Assembly (NCBI GenBank): GCA_907163375.1
Contig: CAJQUW010014367.1
Coordinates: forward strand, 1-64,000
Source of the DNA: Prostheceraeus crozeri
Taxonomy: Eukaryota > Platyhelminthes > Polycladida > Euryleptidae
Direction of reading: 5' to 3'
Length of the DNA: 64,000 nucleotides
Shown: positions 13,713-48,419 of the stretch, one piece after another
How the letters are laid out: every line of letters starts with the position of its first letter
Position numbering within the stretch: the stretch's first letter is position 1
The notes under the pieces: model-generated
The model's database searches: none
What the model was told of the DNA's origin: nothing
The model's input: only the letters and a program-made list of their open reading frames with translations
Position numbers and translations under genes: made by a program

Positions 13713-15859
13713 GTTAGAAGTGTCACCAATTCAGTAATATACACGACTTACGTACACAATGCGAAAAATTCCAAAAGTAAAGATTACACTATAGAAAGCT
13801 GAAACATATACACAACTGTGTGATCTTTATTGATACGAGCTGTGGTAAGTGAAGAAATCGCTTCGAAATTCTCTCTGATCTTTATTGCTTTCTTCAAGAT
13901 CGCAGCGAAAGCAGTATCTGTATGGATTGGCCCTAATAACAGAAATCAAGCACGTTAGATAAGTTCTATTCATCTCAGCAGACATCCATTAAAAGTATCT
14001 TAAAGGGAAGTTTACAGTTTTTAGTAACCATCTTCCTCATAGCATACAATTTTAGGGGTAGGAGGCGAATGTGCAACTGTAAACAAATTTAAATGTTCAA
14101 GTTAAAATAACGTAAAATTCAACTGGTCCTACTCCTAAAAGACCGGACGTTTTGCCTGCGACGCTTCAAATAAAGAACAGCAACTGAATGAACATTATCC
14201 TCTTGCAGAATCGTTATCAACTGATGAGGTAGAGGACGTGTCAAGCGAGGTCGTGATTCGATGATCTGCTGGATGCAACGCTCTCATATGGTGAGGTTTG
14301 TGATGATGAAGAAGAGTATAATACCACTGAAGAAATGGAGAAACCTGATGATTTAAAGAAGATGGATTTGAGTGAAGTTCTTCTGTTGTTCATGGTACTG
14401 TTCAACATTAGCAGAAGAGCCATGGATTTTCTTTTGGAAGAACTTAATTCTCGCGGCATGGATGTCCCTAGGTCGGTGTACTTATTGAAGAAGAGGTGCT
14501 CTCCTCAGTCATTCGACTTCGTGAACCAGATAAAAAACCAGATGATAAAAGAATCTAAATATCCTAAACCATTACCATTAGCCGTTTTCTGTGGTGTTGG
14601 CAAGCCCAAACTAGAAGCTTTAATTGAAAAATTTGTCAGTGAAGTTAAGAATTTAAAAAGTTGTGTGCAGAATATATGTGGTTATGACATCATTATTGGT
14701 GAAATAGTATTGTGATGCGCCCGCTAGAGCATACATTCAATGTATTTATGGGCACTCCGCCTCCCTTGGATGCGGATATTGTAGAATCGCAGGTCAAAAA
14801 GAATTCGGAATGATGTTTCCTTATTCAGGATACGAGATCCTTCAGAACTTCAGTCGCACGGACGAGGATTACGCAGTGATGTCAGAAAATAACCAGGTAG
14901 TGCTCTCCCCTGTTGCTACAATATGTTCTTTACGCAGTTCTTTCCTTCCCGAGTTTATGCACAGTGTGTGTTTAGGAGTTGTCCGTAAATTATGTGAGGC
15001 ATACTTTGTTGGTTTCAAGGGTTTGAAGTTGCCATGTAAGTTAAGTTTTAAAATGAAGGATGAAGTATCAGTGCACATTTTGTCTTTGCAGAAATATCTG
15101 CCATCTGAATTTTCAAGAAAGCTAAGACCTCTTAAAGAATTTCCGCATTATAAAGCTGTTGAATTTCGTATTTTAATTTTGTATCTAGGTCCCGTTATTT
15201 TGAAAAATGTACTACCATTTGAATTCTATTCTAATTTTCTGTTACTACATTATGCAATATATTGTTTCTGTTCCCCTACATATTGTCCCTTATTGTATTC
15301 CGAAGCAGAAGGGTGTATTGAAAGATTCAGTGAATCGGCAGAGACATTATTCTGTAGGCGACTACAAACCTATAATACTCATATCATACGGCATCTGCCG
15401 GAGTTCGTGAAAATGTATGGTTGCCTTGATCTTTGGTCATCATTTGTATATGAAAACTATCTCGGTCTCTTGAAACGGCGATTGAAGTGCACTAGTGGAA
15501 TGATGAAGCAAACTATTAATAATCTCAATATTATGACTCGTATTTTTTCTGAAGGGCAAAGTTTTAAATTTACGTACACATTCGACTTTCCTAATAACTG
15601 TGCTATATTGGAAGATCAAACCATTATCATTATCACAAGTGTAGCAGAAAATGGTTTCATAAGTGGATTTAAATTGTGTTTCTCTCACGATCTATATGAC
15701 TATCCTTATCTTTCAGTCAATTTGAATATTGGATTTTATCGACAAACGAACAGTCAAATACGCGATGTAAATCCCCTTGGCAAATGCATTGTGATACCAT
15801 ATCCCAAGGATTTTTTTCTCGTTGTACCTTTGGTCAATTCTGAGTGTTACGTCAATTAG

Positions 15860-16700: not shown

Positions 16701-17260
16701 ATACAAATAAAGTATGTGTGTTTTTTACAAGAAGGCTGGTCATCACCAACACGTTCTTATTGTTTGGAGAGATGCTCATGGTTCCACACATCGCGTATGT
16801 CATGGGCAGGGAAACCTTTAGCTGTTTTCATTTTGCTTGGGACGTCACGTCGCGGAGATATGATTGTCCCAGTAACGGTGAAGCCTTTCTACAAAAGATC
16901 CTCACACAAGGCTAAGGAAGTAAAATATCGATCAACGAAGACATTGCGATGAGATTGAGAACATGGCTGTGTCAAATTCATAAAAATTGACATTGCTAAA
17001 CCAGTAGCCCGCATCACATAACCAGAAGACCTTGACACCATATCTGGCAGGTTTCTGTGGCTTATATGCCCTACCAATCCACGGTAGGCATAGAGTTGTT
17101 CGTAGACAGTGATGGGAAGGGCATGTAATACCGTCGCAGAAGCTGTTATACAAGCGTACATCCAATTTGCCATCACTGGCCTGTTCATAAACATCCGGAT
17201 CCGGATTGTCACTACATGTAGTTCTAAGGCTTCAGCTTCCTCCTCTTCTGAATCACTCAT
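16700..17260 (-). pseudogene. piggyBac transposase fossil
   Basis: Read on the minus strand, one frame gives LPITVYEQLYAYRGLVG and another gives KPQKPARYGVKVFWLCDAG. The first frame returns with NVFVDRYFTSLALCEDLL, and after a stop, KGFTVTGTI and VPSKMK. These match, in order, the piggyBac DDE_Tnp_1_7 landmarks: tIDEqlvpfRG, KPhKyGiKv, DnfFTS and GtvR. The first catalytic Asp (IDEQ) is Tyr here, while the Asp before the FTS motif is retained. There are at least one frameshift, one stop, and a loss of the region between the second and third blocks. N-terminal and C-terminal parts are missing. It is a dead fragment unrelated in position to the piggyBac at 35.4 kb. Confidence 0.75.
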
Positions 17261-17299
17261 CTCATCGTCCTCATCTTCTGTGTCATGTTGTAGAGCTAT

Positions 17300-17961
17300 G
17301 TAGTCGTTGAATTATCTCATCGAGCGTCGGTCGCATATTTCCCTATGATTTGAATAAACTGACCCGTGTCATCTCAGTGTACCATTTTCCTCATCACTCG
17401 TGCCACCAATCAATACTTGTCTGAATTTTCAGTTCCAATTCGGTCACTAACTTTTGTAAAGTGACGAAATGTTCAACTCTAGCATTGATACTAACTAATA
17501 TCCTATACACGTTGTTCAGTGTAAGGGAGAGGAAAAGACCGCAGACTTTTCACAGAATAGGTAAGAAACAGTTACTACGAGACTATGACGTAATAAGCTA
17601 ACTCTCCTCTGTGATGATTCAGGAATAGATTTTGGTCGGATTTGGAAAAAAATCTGGCTCCAGCCGGTTCTTGGGAAGGTGTCGAATCCGACCTGAATTC
17701 CGACCGGGTTTGAAATCCGGTGTACCCCTACTAATGATTCTGATTCTAAACAGCACAGTTCAAAAAGAAATATTGAGATCTGTGATACTCTTGGAAGCCG
17801 CAAACATGCTTCATGATTAATACCAATCATCAGTACGACAAACCCTATACTAATAATACTAGTAATGACTGCATTTTTTTGAGCTGAACAATATGTCATT
17901 TATTTTATGGAAAATATGACTTTATTGTCTTCATATAGTTTCGTACAATTTACTTTTCCAG
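17300..17961. other. Upstream region of the DUF4806-type gene
   Basis: No coding exon is identified. A block at about 17627-17735 has repeated tcggat/atccga words and resembles a small miniature element. The last bases before 17962 form a pyrimidine tract ending in ttttccag, a good splice acceptor, so a further upstream exon (coding or 5' UTR) probably exists here or further left. Confidence 0.4.
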
Positions 17962-25909: not shown

Positions 25910-28900
25910 TTATAGTTCCTGTCTTTTTAACAATCGAATGGACTTTTTCAGATGCTTGATGAATGTTGTATAGGAAGTATTATCTTCATCTCCTGTTGGT
26001 GCATGCAGAACATTTGTAGCAGATAAAGACGTTGGCTTCTCAATATCGTGCTCTCTTGCTAATGGAATTATTGGCTTCTTCAGGAAAGTTGCTAGATCCA
26101 TCTCATGACAGCAGGACGGATCGTTGAGATACTCGGTCGTCAGTACAACAATAATAGTCTTGGCATGCTTCATAAACCGACGTCTGATCTCAATTGGTGT
26201 CCAATAGCCATCATCAGGATTAGGATTATCATAGAAGCTAACAAGGACTGATAGGGATTCGTCGAGATGCGAGTCAGATTTGCATGCATTGATATGAAAA
26301 TTTTCGTTTCGTTCATCTTCCATTTGAGGAACAAGATAAGACACAACCCATGACCGATCATTTTTATGACAAGATATAAAGCAATCAACTGTTCCTTCTG
26401 GCAAAGGTGAGAAGACATTTATGATGTTCTTTTCAAAAGGAATCTTTTCACAGGAAAACCTTTTCGTCACTAAAAGGTCATGAGAATGATAGCAGATGTA
26501 AGACTGATTTCCTCTTGGGAAGTTAATCATGCCACAGCTTCGGTTTTCTAGTCTGTTGAAGATATCAAGGAAATCGATATTCGTAAAATCATTCAATTCA
26601 ATTTGTCTCAACGAACATGGACATACTAGCTTCAAACTGAATTCCAAGTATTCAGAATATAGTTTGATAAGATAATAGACTTGGAAGGTTAGGTGTCTCA
26701 ATGCCTTGAATACATCTGGGGCTTCTGAACTCTTTAATCGAATCCAAATTTCATTTTCCGATCGCTTGATACTGAATGTCACTGATTCAGAATACCAGAA
26801 AACTCCTTCATTTGCAAACAACTCCCATTCCAAGTTGGGAGAACTATGTAATTTCAATTGAAGTGTCTCATTTGAGCATACCGTTAGCAGACGAGCAAAC
26901 AATGACGGGGGACAGAAGTACCCAAAATCAAGAACAGCTATCTCATTTGGATTCGAAATGAATGGATCACTGACAGATCTTGAGGGTAGTTCAAAAGTCA
27001 GATGAAAATTCTCACAGGGCATGTGTAAATCAGCTGCTATTATTATGCCCAATGCATCCATTAATCTACATACAACCTCATTCTCTTTAATCAGCGTCAG
27101 TGCTTCTTCTCGTCTTCTCAAACTGGATTCACTGTGTAGATTGGAATCCATTGGACAAAGTATCCTAATGAATTCAACAAGAGATTTTCTATCCATAACA
27201 ACACAGTTTTGGAGAAGTGGATCATCAGAATTGTAATATATTTCACCACAATCATTGAAATATCGTAGCATGCGATAGAAATCAGATTTTCCTTTTAGGT
27301 AGCATGTATCTTTCACTTCTTCCCATAACTCCGTACATGACCGAATGCAACTTAGTATACAATGATTTTCGACATCTGTTGCACGATAGTTCTTTCTCAA
27401 TACAGACAGAAATGCGAACCAAGACACCCGGTTTGGTAAAGTCACGTATTCAGCCTCATTCGAAATGTCCCAAATCTGACGCTTCAATTCCCTTAAATCT
27501 TCCATGCTGCAGTGGCGATGCATATTATCGATAGCAAAAACAAACGCTTTGTTCAAAGGATTTCTTACAATTCTTCCTTTATACTGACGTCCGACATGCG
27601 TTGACAACTTATTGACGACATCCGTCAGTTCATCGTCATTTTGAACAGAGTGCTTATGAGTTCCAACAAGAAAAATTTTAGCATCCGGATGTCTCGCATG
27701 GCTCAAGGCACTGTTCAGCCAATACAAGATTTCTTTCAGTGAATTCTCAAAATCCTCGCACAAGTCTGTTAAGCGGAAGACGACAAGATAGGAAGCATGT
27801 CGACACATGAATATATGATGAGCCTTTTGATAAAACTTTTGGCCAGCACAGTCAAGGATAGAAAGTTTAGCGATGTTGTCACAGTGTTTTTGATCTCTGT
27901 AGACTTTATTTAGAATTGACTGAAGTGGAACGAGCGAATAATTTGATTTCTTTTGATAATGTTTAGATCGGCACCAAACTAAGAATACACAACCAAGAAT
28001 TGCAGTAATTATGCCAAAGTACGATTGAGACATAGCGAATTCAAGTCCAAATATTTTGCCATAGATTATGCCTACAATTACTCCAAGCACATCAGACTTT
28101 ACTAATTGGAAAATGGGATAAGTGTTCAGAGATATAAATAGCTTTTTTACGATCTCTTTACCGAGAACAAATCCTGTGCCTGTAATAATTCCAAGAACAG
28201 ACATTATGAGAGCAGTTGTCATCCAGGTATTTTCGAAGAAAGCAATTCCAAGAATTAGCAAGTATCCACCAATGATGATGGCAATGCGAAATACTGAATT
28301 ATAATTTTGACATTCTGACATTTCCATTTCATCATTTTCCCTACTATTCAGCCACATTATTAGCAAGAAGCCCACAAAAGATCCCAAGTAGAGTATAATC
28401 AATTGAGTTGTATTTTCACTGTCATCTATTAATGTTGGTTCTTTTGTTAACAAGCAGAGAATAAGCAAGGAGCTTGGACCACATCCTAATGTCAAAAATG
28501 ACCCAATGAAAATTGAGTACGGGGTAAGTGCAAATGATGCGGACAACACAGACCAGCATATATCAGGAAAGGTTTTGACGCTAGATAAGATAACATCAAC
28601 TATTTTCCGATATTGCATATGTAGAATATGATATCCGATCGTCATTCCATAGCCGCAGGCGAATGCATCTAAGAGTTCATATCCAATAAATGTATGAACA
28701 AGAGTTAACAGCAGAAGACTCCATGAAAATGGACAAAGATAATATACGTAGATGAATTTAAATGTCACCAAAAATAAAATGGTTTCAACGATCGTAATAT
28801 AGGCTATTTTGAATCTGTCAATTTCCCGAGGAAGTTTGCTTTTGGGATGTAACTTGCGTGTCAGACAGTTTGCCATTGCCGATTCAAATTCATATTTGTG

Positions 28901-29182
28901 ATCATTGATGTCAACTTCTTTCCATTCTCGGTCCACATTCGTCCAATTCGCTGTCATTACATCCGCATACAAGGTGGGAAAGTGCTCGAAAATGTGAGTT
29001 TTATCCAACAATTGTCTACATGTAGAGGTCTTACCAGCTCCAGTACTACCCAGGAATATTACTTTCGCTGTCGGACATGATACTGTTCCGAATTCAACAA
29101 GCCAACTCTCTGAAATACTTTCAATGGTACGATTTGACATTTCTAAATTTCGCAGATTTTCAAGTATGAAATCCTTAGCCAT
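25910..29182 (-). CDS. Roc-COR-TIR protein with multi-pass membrane insert in the GTPase domain
   Basis: One uninterrupted 1090-residue frame; the ATG has a good context (gcgATGG). A P-loop GSTGAGKTS lies at residues 45-53. Residues 125-405 hold about eight or nine hydrophobic helices. The switch-II motif DCAGQ is at 444-448, followed by HHIFMCRHASYLVVF, typical of Roc domains. The G4 position reads VGTHKH (506-511) rather than the usual THxD, so the base-specifying Asp is missing. Residues ~580-925 look like a COR region (FYRMLRYFNDCGEIYY; FGYFCPPSLFARLL). A TIR domain spans ~931-1083 (VDCFISCHKNDRSWV), with Glu1027 in CCHE at the place of the catalytic Glu of NAD-cleaving TIRs. Basic residues flank the membrane block on both sides, so both halves of the G domain can be cytosolic. 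No LRRs or signal peptide are seen. A role in GTPase-gated TIR signalling from a membrane is inferred. Confidence 0.88.
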   Translation of the reverse strand: MAKDFILENLRNLEMSNRTIESISESWLVEFGTVSCPTAKVIFLGSTGAGKTSTCRQLLDKTHIFEHFPTLYADVMTANWTNVDREWKEVDINDHKYEFESAMANCLTRKLHPKSKLPREIDRFKIAYITIVETILFLVTFKFIYVYYLCPFSWSLLLLTLVHTFIGYELLDAFACGYGMTIGYHILHMQYRKIVDVILSSVKTFPDICWSVLSASFALTPYSIFIGSFLTLGCGPSSLLILCLLTKEPTLIDDSENTTQLIILYLGSFVGFLLIMWLNSRENDEMEMSECQNYNSVFRIAIIIGGYLLILGIAFFENTWMTTALIMSVLGIITGTGFVLGKEIVKKLFISLNTYPIFQLVKSDVLGVIVGIIYGKIFGLEFAMSQSYFGIITAILGCVFLVWCRSKHYQKKSNYSLVPLQSILNKVYRDQKHCDNIAKLSILDCAGQKFYQKAHHIFMCRHASYLVVFRLTDLCEDFENSLKEILYWLNSALSHARHPDAKIFLVGTHKHSVQNDDELTDVVNKLSTHVGRQYKGRIVRNPLNKAFVFAIDNMHRHCSMEDLRELKRQIWDISNEAEYVTLPNRVSWFAFLSVLRKNYRATDVENHCILSCIRSCTELWEEVKDTCYLKGKSDFYRMLRYFNDCGEIYYNSDDPLLQNCVVMDRKSLVEFIRILCPMDSNLHSESSLRRREEALTLIKENEVVCRLMDALGIIIAADLHMPCENFHLTFELPSRSVSDPFISNPNEIAVLDFGYFCPPSLFARLLTVCSNETLQLKLHSSPNLEWELFANEGVFWYSESVTFSIKRSENEIWIRLKSSEAPDVFKALRHLTFQVYYLIKLYSEYLEFSLKLVCPCSLRQIELNDFTNIDFLDIFNRLENRSCGMINFPRGNQSYICYHSHDLLVTKRFSCEKIPFEKNIINVFSPLPEGTVDCFISCHKNDRSWVVSYLVPQMEDERNENFHINACKSDSHLDESLSVLVSFYDNPNPDDGYWTPIEIRRRFMKHAKTIIVVLTTEYLNDPSCCHEMDLATFLKKPIIPLAREHDIEKPTSLSATNVLHAPTGDEDNTSYTTFIKHLKKSIRLLKRQEL

Positions 29183-42636: not shown

Positions 42637-45600
42637 GTTGAAAATTTTTCTCTCCGATTGACTTGAAACTCTCCGATTGACATGAAACTCACCATACAGA
42701 TAAAGAATTTGACGCTGATTTCAAATCTGAAATCCGTTTTCCCATCCGATGCTTCGTTTTGAAGCTACAGCCCAAAACGTCCCAAATTCTAACTCTGTCG
42801 TTTTTCGCCAATGTCCCAAAATCTTAAATGGCGTCTCACATCTAAACGAAGACAGATAGGAACAAGCCGATTCTTTCAGTGAATTTGTCTCACTCTTAGC
42901 TTTCAAACGAGCTATAGCACGACTAAATCCGTTCACTGGAAGCCAAAATCGAAGCAAGCTGTCCAGAGGGGGGGGGACGAGAGCAAAAATTTTTCTCGCC
43001 GATTGACTTGAAACTCACCATACAGATAGAGAATTTCACGCTGATTCCAAATCTGAAATCCGTTTTCCCATCCGATGCTTCGTTTTGAAGCTACAGCCCA
43101 AAACGTCCCAAATTCTAACTCTGTCGTTTTTCGCCAATGTCCCAAAATCTTGAATGGCGTCTCACATCTAAACGAAGACAGATAGGAACAAGCCGATTCT
43201 TTCAGTGAATTTGTCTCACTCTTAGCTTTCAAACGAGCTATAGCACGACTAAATCCGTCCACTGGAAGCCAAAATCGAAGCAAGCTGTCCAGAGGGGGGG
43301 GGGACGAGAGCAAAAATTTTTCTCGCCGATTGACTTGAAACTCACCATACAGATAGAGAATTTCACGCTGATTCCAAATCTGAAATCCGTTTTCCCATCC
43401 GATGCTTCGTTTTGAAGCTAGAGCCCAAAACGTCCCAAATTCTAACTCTGTCGTTTTTCGCCAATGTCCCAAAATCTTAAATGGCGTCTCACATCTAAAC
43501 GAAGACAGATAGGAACAAGCCGATTCTTTCACTGAATTTGTCTTACTCTTAGCTTTCAAACGAGCTATGGCACGACTAAATCCGTTCACTGGAAGCCAAA
43601 ATCGAAGCAAGCTGTCCAGAGGGGGGGAGACGACAGCGAAAATTTTTCTCGCCGATTGACTTGAAACTCACCATACAGATAGAGAATTTCACGCTGATTC
43701 CAAATCTGAAATCCGTTTTCCCATCCGATGCTTCGTTTTGAAGCTAGAGCCCAAAACGTCCCAAATTCTAACTCTGTCGTTTTTTCGCCAATGTCCCAAA
43801 ATCTTAAATGGTGTCTCACATCTAAACGAAGACAGATAGGAACAAGCCGATTCTTTCAGTGAATTTGTCTCACTCTTAGCTTTCAAACGAGCTATAGCAC
43901 GACTAAATCCGTCCACTGGAAGCCAAAATCGAAGCAAGCTGTCCAGAGGGGGGGAGACGACAGCGAAAATTTTTCTCGCCGATTGACTTGAAACTCACCA
44001 TACAGATAGAGAATTTCACGCTGATTCCAAATCTGAAATCCGTTTTCCCATCCGATGCTTCGTTTTGAAGCTAGAGCCCAAAACGTCCCAAATTCTAACT
44101 CTGTCGTTTTTCGCCAATGTCCCAAAATCTTAAATGGTGTCTCACATCTAAACGAAGACAGATAGGAACAAGCCGATTCTTTCAGTGAATTTGTCTCACT
44201 CTTAGCTTTCAAACGAGCTATAGCACGACTAAATCCGTCCACTGGAAGCCAAAATCGAAGCAAGCTGTCCAGAGGGGGGGAGACGACAGCGAAAATTTTT
44301 CTCGCCGATTGACTTGAAACTCACCATACAGATAGAGAATTTCACGCTGATTCCAAATCTGAAATCCGTTTTCCAATCCGATGCTTCGTTTTGAAGCTAC
44401 AGCCCAAAACGTCCCAAATTCTAACTCTGTCGTTTTTCGCCAATGTCCCAAAATCTTGAATGGCGTCTCACATCTAAACGAAGACAGATAGGAACAAGCC
44501 GATTCTTTCACTGAATTTGTCTCACTCTTAGCTTTCAAACGAGCTATGGCACGACTAAATCCGTTCACTGGAAGCCAAAATCGAAGCAAGCTGTCCAGAG
44601 GGGGGGGGACGAGAGCAAAAATTTTTCTCGCCGATTGACTTGAAACTCACCATACAGATAGAGAATTTCACGCTGATTCCAAATCTGAAATCCGTTTTCC
44701 CATCCGATGCTTCGTTTTGAAGCTAAAGCCCAAAACGTCCCAAATTCTAACTCTGTCGTTTTTCGCCAATGTCCCAAAATCTTAAATGGCGTCTCACATC
44801 TAAACGAAGACAGATAGGAACAAGCCGATTCTTTCAGTGAATTTGTCTCACTCTTAGCTTTCAAACGAGCTATGGCACGACTAAATCCGTTCACTGGAAG
44901 CCAAAATCGAAGCAAGCTGTCCAGAGGGGGGGGGAGTCAGCGAAATTTTTGTCTCCGATTGACATGAAACTCACCATACAGATAAAGAATTTGACGCTGA
45001 TTCCAAATCTGAAATCCGTTTTCCCATCCGATGCTTCGTTTTGAAGCTACAGCCCAAAACGTCCCAAATTCTAACTCTGTCGTTTTTCGCCAATGTCCCA
45101 AAATCTTAAATGGCGTCTCACATCTAAACGAAGACAGATAGGAACAAGCCGATTCTTTCAGTGAATTTGTCTCACTCTTAGCTTTCAAACGAGCTATGGC
45201 ACGACTAAATCCGTCCACTGGAAGCCAAAATCGAAGCAAGCTGTCCAGAGGGGGGGAGACGACAGCAAAAATTTTTCTCGCCGATTGACTTGAAACTCAC
45301 CATACAGATAGAGAATTTCACGCTGATTCCAAATCTGAAATCCGTTTTCCCATCCGATGCTTCGTTTTGAAGCTAGAGCCCAAAACGTCCCAAATTCTAA
45401 CTCTGTCGTTTTTCGCCAATGTCCCAAAATCTTAAATGGCGTCTCACATCTAAACGAAGACAGATAGGAACAAGCCGATTCTTTCACTGAATTTGTCTCA
45501 CTCTTAGCTTTCAAACGAGCTATGGCATGACTAAATCCGTTCACTGGAAGCCAAAATCGAAGCAAGCTGTCCAGAGGGGGGGGACGTCAGCGAAAATTTT

Positions 45601-48000
45601 TGTCTCCGATTGACATGAAACTCACCATACAGATAGAGAATTTCACGCTGATTCCAAATCTGAAATCCGTTTTCCCATCCGATGCTTCGTTTTGAAGCTA
45701 CAGCCCAAAACGTCCCAAATTCTAACTCTGTCGTTTTTCGCCAATGTCCCAAAATCTTAAATGGCGTCTCACATCTAAACGAAGACAGATAGGAACAAGC
45801 CGATTCTTTCAGTGAATTTGTCTCACTCTTAGCTTTCAAACGAGCTATGGCACGACTAAATCCGTCCACTGGAAGCCAAAATCGAAGCAAGCTGTCCAGA
45901 GGGGGGGAGACGACAGCAAAAATTTTTCTCGCCGATTGACTTGAAACTCACCATACAGATAGAGAATTTCACGCTGATTCCAAATCTGAAATCCGTTTTC
46001 CCATCCGATGCTTCGTTTTGAAGCTAGAGCCCAAAACGTCCCAAATTCTAACTCTGTCGTTTTTCGCCAATGTCCCAAAATCTTAAATGGCGTCTCACAT
46101 CTAAACGAAGACAGATAGGAACAAGCCGATTCTTTCAGTGAATTTATCTCACTCTTAGCTTTCAAACGAGCTATGGCATGACTAAATCCGTTCACTGGAA
46201 GCCAAAATCGAAGCAAGCTGTCCAGAGGGGGGGGGACGTCAGCGAAAATTTTTCTCGCCGATTGACATGAAACTCACCATACAGATAGAGAATTTCACGC
46301 TGATTCCAAATCTGAAATCCGTTTTCCCATCCGATGCTTCGTTTTGAAGCTACAGCCCAAAACGTCCCAAATTCTAACTCTGTCGTTTTTCGCCAATGTC
46401 CCAAAATCTTAAATGGCGTCTCACATCTAAACGAAGACAGATAGGAACAAGCCGATTCTTTCAGTGAATTTGTCTCACTCTTAGCTTTCAAACGAGCTAT
46501 GGCACGACTAAATCCGTTCACTGGAAGCCAAAATCGAAGCAAGCTGTCCAGAGGGGGGGGGAGTCAGCGAAATTTTTGTCTCCGATTGACATGAAACTCA
46601 CCATACAGATAAAGAATTTGACGCTGATTCCAAATCTGAAATCCGTTTTCCCATCCGATGCTTCGTTTTGAAGCTACAGCCCAAAACGTCCCAAATTCTA
46701 ACTCTGTCGTTTTTCGCCAATGTCCCAAAATCTTAAATGGCGTCTCACATCTAAACGAAGACAGATAGGAACAAGCCGATTCTTTCAGTGAATTTGTCTC
46801 ACTCTTAGCTTTCAAACGAGCTATGGCACGACTAAATCCGTCCACTGGAAGCCAAAATCGAAGCAAGCTGTCCAGAGGGGGGGAGACGACAGCAAAAATT
46901 TTTCTCGCCGATTGACTTGAAACTCACCATACAGATAGAGAATTTCACGCTGATTCCAAATCTGAAATCCGTTTTCCCATCCGATGCTTCGTTTTGAAGC
47001 TAGAGCCCAAAACGTCCCAAATTCTAACTCTGTCGTTTTTCGCCAATGTCCCAAAATCTTAAATGGCGTCTCACATCTAAACGAAGACAGATAGGAACAA
47101 GCCGATTCTTTCAGTGAATTTATCTCACTCTTAGCTTTCAAACGAGCTATGGCATGACTAAATCCGTTCACTGGAAGCCAAAATCGAAGCAAGCTGTCCA
47201 GAGGGGGGGGACGTCAGCGAAAATTTTTCTCGCCGATTGACTTGAAACTCACCATACAGATAGAGAATTTCACGCTGATTCCAAATCTGAAATCCGTTTT
47301 CCCATCCGATGCTTCGTTTTGAAGCTACAGCCCAAAACGTCCCAAATTCTAACTCTGTCGTTTTTCGCCAATGTCCCAAAATCTTAAATGGCGTCTCACA
47401 TCTAAACGAAGACAGATAGGAACAAGCCGATTCTTTCAGTGAATTTGTCTCACTCTTAGCTTTCAAACGAGCTATGGCACGACTAAATCCGTTCACTGGA
47501 AGCCAAAATCGAAGCAAGCTGTCCAGAGGGGGGGGGAGTCAGCGAAATTTTTGTCTCCGATTGACATGAAACTCACCATACAGATAAAGAATTTGACGCT
47601 GATTCCAAATCTGAAATCCGTTTTCCCATCCGATGCTTCGTTTTGAAGCTACAGCCCAAAACGTCCCAAATTCTAACTCTGTCGTTTTTCGCCAATGTCC
47701 CAAAATCTTAAATGGCGTCTCACATCTAAACGAAGACAGATAGGAACAAGCCGATTCTTTCAGTGAATTTGTCTCACTCTTAGCTTTCAAACGAGCTATG
47801 GCATGACAAAATCCGTCCACTGGAAGCCAAAATCGAAGCGAGCTGTCCAGAGGGGGGGGACGTCAGCGAAAATTTTTCTCTCCGATTGACTTGAAACTCA
47901 CCATACCGATGCAGAATTTCACGCTGAATCCGAATCTGGAATCCGTTTTCTCATCCGATGCTTCGTTTGGGCTCTACACACCAAAACGTCCCAAATTCTA
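42637..48000. repeat. Satellite array, ~326-bp monomer, 16 full copies
   Basis: The marker tcgaagcaagctgtccagag recurs every 323-327 bases from about 42947 to 47830, giving sixteen near-identical monomers. Each has a poly-G run of 7-10 bases after the marker, then a variable spacer, then a conserved body (ttgaaactcaccatacagat; cgttttcccatccgatgctt). Spacer types recur in order, pointing to multi-monomer higher-order units in the right half. Each monomer keeps an open minus-strand frame of 100-123 codons (MLRFWLPVNGF start). Recent homogenisation explains this, and frames shift with poly-G length, so I do not call them genes. The first monomer at 42637 is partial, with a small local duplication. 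Confidence 0.93.
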
Positions 48001-48419
48001 ACTCTGTCGTTTTTTCGAAAAATGTTGAAAATTTTTTCTCGCCGATTGACTTCAAATTCACCATACCGATGCGGAATTTTACGCTGATCACGAATCTAAA
48101 GTCCGTTTCACCATTCCACCACGCCAACCTAGACGGTCGCCCACGTCAACCTAGACGGTCGCCCGCGTCAACCTAGGCGGTCGGCCACGTCAACCCATAC
48201 GAGACCAACACATCCGAGTCTCACACTCTGTCGTTTTCGAGGGGGGGGGGAGTCAGCGAACATGTTGTGAACGTGAACCAACCTGGCCGGCACACCACGA
48301 CAGACCACAACCTCTGTCGTTCCAGAGGGGGGGGGAGGGGAGGGGGAGGGGAGGGGGAGGGGAGGGGGAGGGGGAGGGGGAGGGGGCGCGCCGGTCGAGT
48401 GTTTGTCACTTGCTTACTA
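48001..48419. repeat. Diverged array edge with minisatellite and G-rich tract
   Basis: After 47880 the monomers become much more diverged (second edge monomer near 48020-48110). Then follow about 3.5 copies of a 22-base unit (cacgtcaacctagacggtcg, 48119-48196), two truncated monomer scraps carrying ctctgtcgtt and poly-G, and a 60-base tract of gggggagggg repeats at 48326-48386. The tract could form G-quadruplex structures. Confidence 0.8.

Follow-up and report, generated by a model that had tools for sequence, protein, structure and literature searches.

A flatworm gene predicted to encode a ROCO-like protein with a multi-pass membrane block inside its Roc domain and a TIR domain at its C-terminus

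Can a Ras-like G domain be interrupted by a whole membrane-spanning block and be completed behind it? This question is raised by a gene in a 64,000-nucleotide stretch of DNA (the window; positions 1 to 64,000 of contig CAJQUW010014367.1, assembly GCA_907163375.1) from the flatworm Prostheceraeus crozeri. The gene lies on the minus strand, running from 29182 to 25910, as a single ATG-to-TAA frame of 1090 codons; the initial annotation had placed it correctly at 25910..29182, leaving the strand unstated. No open reading frame (ORF) of 80 or more amino acids on the plus strand overlaps it, and plus frame 1 contains stops throughout. The sequence evidence supports the proposed layout, in which a multi-pass membrane block is inserted between β2 and β3 of a single Roc domain and this domain is succeeded by a COR-like region and TIR. 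This order is backed by the two halves of the Roc profile, a collinear match to LRRK2, and five homologous loci, namely those of four single-ORF copies (P0001, the window protein, and P0002–P0004) and a multi-exon homolog on contig C3017. We assign the gene to a small family encoding polytopic, ROCO-like proteins of this species, with the order of the parts read from the sequences and the fold and topology predicted or inferred. The features of the window gene are as follows.

25910..29182, minus strand: whole ORF of 1090 residues with the Roc N-terminal half, membrane block, Roc C-terminal half, COR-like region, and TIR domain (ORF list and homologs)
28871..29077, minus strand: Roc N-terminal half, residues 36–104, with β1, P-loop, switch I, and β2 (Pfam Roc positions 1–47)
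29027..29050, minus strand: P-loop GSTGAGKT, residues 45–52 (G45, G48, G50, K51, and T52 invariant in the four single-ORF copies)
27953..28825, minus strand: putative multi-pass membrane block, residues about 120–410, with 8–10 predicted helices (hydrophobicity and topology scoring)
27458..27889, minus strand: Roc C-terminal half, residues 432–575, from β3 on (Pfam Roc positions 54–117; LRRK2 Roc match)
27842..27853, minus strand: DxxG (G3) motif DCAG, residues 444–447 (invariant in all five homologs)
27650..27661, minus strand: G4 position THKH, residues 508–511, without the usual Asp (five-homolog alignment)
26429..27457, minus strand: COR-like region, residues 576–918 (COR-A weak here, over the cut-off in the homolog on contig C2632)
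25913..26428, minus strand: TIR domain, within residues 919–1090 (TIR_2 at 29.7 bits when scanned alone; weak SIGIRR and TLR structure matches)
26102..26104, minus strand: Glu 1027 in CCHE (invariant in the four single-ORF copies, not kept in C3017)

An interruption of about 330 residues, of which 280 form a hydrophobic block, divides the Roc domain of the window protein, and both motifs indicated earlier, a P-loop at residue 45 and a DxxG at residue 444, were found where expected (G45–T52 and D444–G447). The Pfam cut-offs for Roc, TIR_2, and COR-A are 27, 28, and 35.3 bits, respectively. When the full-length protein was scanned, the Roc model matched in two stretches with a score of 48.3 bits. 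Residues 30–110 alone matched model positions 1–47 with 24.0 bits (below the cut-off), and residues 425–600 alone matched positions 54–117 with 34.7 bits. Since the two halves are complementary and no position is matched twice, they correspond to a single Roc profile cut near model positions 48–53, between β2 and β3. Removal of the block from the protein gave a Roc score of 55.5 bits.

A profile built from the five G domains without the block was compared with the Protein Data Bank (PDB) and gave a single collinear alignment to the Roc domain of LRRK2 over profile positions 5–160, with a best E of 6.4e-10. This profile matched 55 distinct PDB sequences at E ≤1e-3, and the first 25 rows consisted of 24 entries named LRRK2 and one unnamed kinase of equal length. 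The uncut profile matched the LRRK2 Roc domain with an E of 7.4e-5, to which the C-terminal and N-terminal halves contributed 19.9 and 2.0 bits, respectively. Residues 36–104 and 432–575 thus appear to form one G domain, a fold implied by these alignments.

To identify relatives, the genome (2,048,925,868 bases in 14,165 contigs) was searched. With the window protein as the query, eight matches were obtained at E up to 1e-3, corresponding to the window gene, three full-length single-ORF copies on contigs C5844, C5062, and C2632 (65%, 63%, and 33% identical to the window protein in this search, respectively), and four exons on C3017. When the C2632 protein served as the query, 11 matches were obtained at E ≤1, which represented the same five loci and two weak places matching Roc only. 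The family size is a lower bound because a six-frame search can miss divergent or multi-exon members. The three other single-ORF copies have open frames of 1083, 1084, and 1096 codons and are 31–65% identical to the window protein over the full-length alignment; the four proteins can be aligned along their entire length, the block occupying an equivalent position in each, and all four homologous loci besides the window gene share its domain order and insertion point. In the viral and prokaryotic contig collections, no relative was confirmed: two and four pattern matches were found, and none of them encodes one.

The ratio of nonsynonymous to synonymous substitution (dN/dS) was calculated for the three closest copies (three pairs) with our own implementation in the style of Nei and Gojobori; the P0001–P0004 comparison was saturated except in the TIR domain and was left out. 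The ratio over the whole frame was 0.23–0.31. By segment, it was 0.04–0.23 for the Roc halves, 0.19–0.30 for COR, 0.26–0.40 for TIR, and 0.32–0.41 for the block. The block was the least constrained segment in two pairs; in the remaining pair, TIR alone was less constrained. All segments of the three close copies are under constraint, with dN/dS below 0.42 throughout.

The locus on C3017, of which 200 kb were examined, carries on its minus strand a P-loop exon, a long block exon, and then Roc, COR-like, and TIR exons in this order. The exons are predicted, with the splice sites read by eye as consensus GT-AG. The donor of the P-loop exon reads gtaaat. The block exon, from 122014 to 120922 (1093 nt), starts after a tttcag acceptor at the equivalent of W80 of the window protein, contains the later part of β2, the entire block, and LHILDCA, and stops within the glycine codon of the DxxG motif, where a gtgagt donor follows; LDCAGNSIYHNTHHIFM is restored by the following exon. 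Once joined, the exons keep the spacing of the window protein between the switch I Thr and the Trp of WKEV. Because 1093 nt is not a multiple of three (3n+1), omission of this exon would cause a frameshift and the loss of most of the G3 motif. The exon thus ties the block to strands of the G domain, and a retained intron is very unlikely; the case made against one in the initial annotation is strengthened by the five loci of the same layout and by this frame-shifting exon in a multi-exon homolog. The simplest explanation for the four single-ORF copies is that they are retrocopies of a C3017-like multi-exon gene.

Hydrophobic segments were counted in the block. At the first threshold, nine were found in the window protein at residues 126–402, besides the P-loop strand, in agreement with the eight or nine helices originally estimated. 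At a lenient cut-off, ten segments lay in matching columns (within about ten) across the five homologs, and C3017 had a weak eleventh. Topology was scored by dynamic programming with a score written for the present analysis, not with a trained predictor. The best topology had the N-terminus inside in each case. Eight helices scored best for P0001 and P0002, and ten for P0004, C3017, and P0003, the last with eight helices almost level. An even number of helices with both ends inside was predicted in the best and second-best models of all five homologs, so that by this simple in-house score both halves of the G domain would lie in the cytosol, as had been suggested. The charges are in overall accord with this topology, as Lys and Arg on the predicted segments totaled 72 inside and 16 outside; these counts rest on a greedy loop assignment in which helix 5 or 10 is misplaced in three close copies. 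When the C3017 block was used as a genome query, it matched itself only, and the NCBIfam scan of P0001 and P0004 gave matches below the cut-off only.

The regions downstream of the G domain were also examined. In whole-protein Pfam scans, COR-A scored 14.5, 14.0, 13.6, and 31.9 bits in the window protein, P0002, P0003, and P0004, respectively, all below the cut-off, as was the 29.5 bits of the C3017 exon. The C2632 homolog gave 36.4 bits in the genome search and 31.9 bits when the whole protein was scanned. A profile of the COR region matched nothing in PDB at E up to 5. The C-terminal domain matches the TIR_2 sequence profile: TIR_2 scored 23.8 bits in the full window protein (below the cut-off) and 29.7 bits when the C-terminal 170 residues were scanned alone (above it), and it reached 29.1 and 28.9 bits in P0002 and P0004 (above) and 24.4 bits in P0003 (below). 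The genome-wide list of TIR_2 matches at E up to 0.01 included three of the homologs and not the window gene. The profile of the TIR region gave weak matches to SIGIRR and TLR structures, with a best E of 0.0011. Judging from the motif of TIR NADases, Glu 1027 presumably occupies the position of their catalytic Glu.

How might such a protein work? We propose a membrane-embedded, ROCO-like sensor-switch with TIR output. The nascent chain would make β1, the P-loop, and β2 of Roc, cross the membrane 8 or 10 times, return to the cytosol, and complete the same Roc domain from β3 and DCAG on, followed by COR and TIR. Since the G domain gives way to the block after β2 and resumes with β3, close to both switches, a shift of the helical bundle would be expected to bias the nucleotide state, and the bundle would in turn be affected by that state; a rigid bundle between the two switch elements could transmit strain in either direction. 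By analogy with the respective families, COR would dimerize the protein, and TIR would pass the signal on through TIR–TIR assembly or NAD cleavage. The anatomy in this proposal is highly probable, the mechanism has about an even chance once the anatomy is granted, and the two together come out slightly below even.

Several results weigh against this proposal. The helix number is not fixed, 8 being best in two homologs and 10 in three. The charge bias is modest when the loops within the block are counted alone (30 Lys and Arg inside and 16 outside, under the same loop assignment), and P0004 has no such bias in its internal loops (6 inside and 6 outside). COR-A exceeds the Pfam cut-off in a single homolog, C2632, and there in the genome search alone. 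The Glu in CCHE is present in all four single-ORF copies and not kept in C3017. The main result opposing a plain GTPase is that the G4 Asp is absent in all five homologs, which read THKH, THKH, THRH, THSG, and THKM (fourth residue His, His, His, Gly, and Met, respectively).

The absence of the G4 Asp suggests that GTP binding or guanine specificity may be altered, relaxed, or lost, and the Roc fold could have been kept as a scaffold that no longer binds GTP selectively. In line with this pseudo-GTPase reading, the two ordinary ROCO genes in which G4 was seen in this genome do have the Asp (THCD). However, all five homologs retain unchanged the P-loop Gly-Lys-Thr, DCAG, and one Thr of the switch I region, and a dead domain need not keep the P-loop Lys-Thr, this Thr, or DxxG. 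A scaffold of this kind is a substantial possibility, though clearly below even.

A second explanation is that the block is an anchor or targeting device placed in a tolerant loop, which senses nothing, and that the control of Roc-COR-TIR is cytosolic, like that of other ROCO proteins. Roc is known to tolerate insertions, with Roc domains of brown algae described as reaching 467 amino acids because of non-conserved inserts (PMC11378527), and the block evolves faster than the Roc halves, with amino acid identities of 52–57% and 71–87%, respectively, between P0001 and P0002 or P0003. For anchoring, however, one or two helices would suffice instead of 8–10, and the block alignment of the five homologs retains 18 invariant columns, 9 of them Gly, even with two homologs, C3017 among them, that are just 18% identical to the window protein within the block. 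We therefore consider a pure anchor unlikely.

The output might instead reside in the block, which would act as a channel or transporter under the control of the Roc-COR switch, while TIR would serve for assembly or input. The alignment of ten hydrophobic segments across the homologs and the conserved Gly motifs (GxG and GxxxGxxxG among them) are consistent with this idea. Against it, no charged column of the block is invariant among the five homologs, comparison with Pfam gave no convincing family (four stray families, each in one of the five members, with SNaCT12 best at E 0.065), and no PDB sequence was matched at E up to 5. A gated channel or transporter is accordingly quite improbable. 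The anchor, gated-channel, and pseudo-GTPase readings overlap in part. An artefact, in the form of a retained intron, an assembly chimera, or a pseudogene, could be suspected of a single-exon gene in a genome probably rich in long introns (the published Prostheceraeus crozieri assembly is given as 2,065,465,794 bp with a GC content of 37.64% and a mean intron of 5,263 bp; PMC9469890), and yet it can be dismissed as extremely improbable in view of the layout shared by five loci, including a multi-exon one, the long open frames of the other single-ORF copies, and the purifying selection in three pairs.

We then compared the window protein with known systems. In common with ROCO proteins (LRRK1/2, MFHAS1, and DAPK1), it has Roc followed by a COR-like region, and LRRK2 Roc is the closest solved structure to its G domain among the matches listed. 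It differs from them in the multi-pass block in Roc, the absent G4 Asp, the C-terminal TIR, and a short N-terminus with no Pfam match to leucine-rich repeats (LRR). KAP NTPases reportedly carry transmembrane segments inserted in their P-loop NTPase domain, as Aravind et al. are said to have described in 2004; members of this group, Kidins220/ARMS and PifA, provide a precedent for helices inside a P-loop domain. In heterotrimeric G-alpha, a helical domain is inserted in the Ras-like fold near switch I; that domain is soluble and lies between α1 and β2. KAP was absent from the nine Pfam matches of the window protein at E up to 1, and KAP ATPases are grouped with AAA+ and STAND, whereas Roc belongs to the Ras-like GTPases. 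Should the fold be the one that the alignments imply, a Ras-like G domain would be completed around a multi-pass membrane bundle. This would provide a direct mechanical link from membrane to switch and, beside the KAP NTPases, a further case of helices in a P-loop domain. Among the matches listed from the open-licence literature, no title or opening of an abstract described a membrane block inside Roc or another Ras-like G domain.

The sea-anemone protein NG1, consisting of LRR, Roc/Ras, a low-threshold COR, and TIR_2, likewise combines Roc, a low-scoring COR, and TIR_2 in one animal protein, but it has LRR, and no membrane block is mentioned in the available part of its description (PMC5094078). 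Actiniarian NLRs with 3–5 N-terminal transmembrane domains offer a parallel, as a cytosolic family of immune NTPases that became membrane proteins in an invertebrate, although their helices are at the N-terminus and not inside the NTPase (PMC5094078). The long Roc insertions of brown algal ROCO proteins are described as non-conserved sequence and not as membrane blocks (PMC11378527), and some C-terminal regions of Ectocarpus ROCO proteins are noted to resemble transmembrane proteins (PMC4104024).

The layout of Toll-like receptors (TLRs), with extracellular LRR, one transmembrane helix, and TIR, was not observed in the window protein, which has no LRR Pfam match and a predicted multi-pass block. 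A review states that Platyhelminthes have no TLR orthologues, but that TIR proteins are present (PMC7958881), which leaves a possible role for a sensor of the proposed kind. If the fold holds, the protein would be a candidate for a TIR receptor in a phylum from which TLRs are reported to be missing, and four natural variants of it are in hand. That it represents a new receptor class, in which sensing by the bundle sets the nucleotide state directly and TIR carries the output, and that it could replace the missing flatworm TLRs, is a doubtful extension of the proposal.

Other Roc and TIR genes were found in the genome. The loci on C10406, C7094, and C1971 were rejected as family members, since their exons for the second half of Roc had no membrane block attached in the stretches read. 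P-loop exons were seen in two of these three ordinary ROCO genes, where only frames of at least 100 codons or with a motif were considered. Between two Roc exons of C10406, frames of 121 and 122 codons each contain one hydrophobic stretch. In two of these genes, on C10406 (L030) and C1971 (L032), an intron appears to split Roc between β2 and β3, near the site of the block, and is a possible entry site for an exon. On C457, COR-A and TIR_2 matches lie about 59 kb apart on one strand (388626–447602), possibly marking a second kind of ROCO-TIR gene; no membrane block was present in the 7.5 kb read on one strand. Clusters of several Roc-model (Ras-like) matches on C9482, C5149, and C748, with open frames of 196–299 codons, suggest local GTPase expansions.

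Elsewhere in the window, a satellite-like array occupies 42669–48014 (16.4 copies of a 326-bp unit, 96% match), with open frames running through it and a GC skew of about −0.14 along most of its length. A fragment of a piggyBac-type transposase was found at 16892–17311 on the minus strand, where DDE_Tnp_1_7 scored 21.4 bits, just under its cut-off of 22.4. A 383-codon open frame at 14708–15856 on the plus strand, with weak similarity to DUF4218 (16.6 bits, below the cut-off), is perhaps a transposon protein. Rfam gave no match in the window at gathering scores, and a scan for promoters of bacterial type was uninformative.

The genome's single COX1 match (locus L029, 14436–18782 of C6227) is on a 100.7-kb contig beside COX2, and its 612-codon frame extends past both usual ends of COX1. 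The contig is either a very large mitochondrial genome or chimeric; no tRNA was detected in the scan of L029. Within COX1, TGA is read as Trp, AGA as Ser, and AAA stands at the Asn of the DRNxNTTFFDP consensus, in accordance with the echinoderm and flatworm mitochondrial code.

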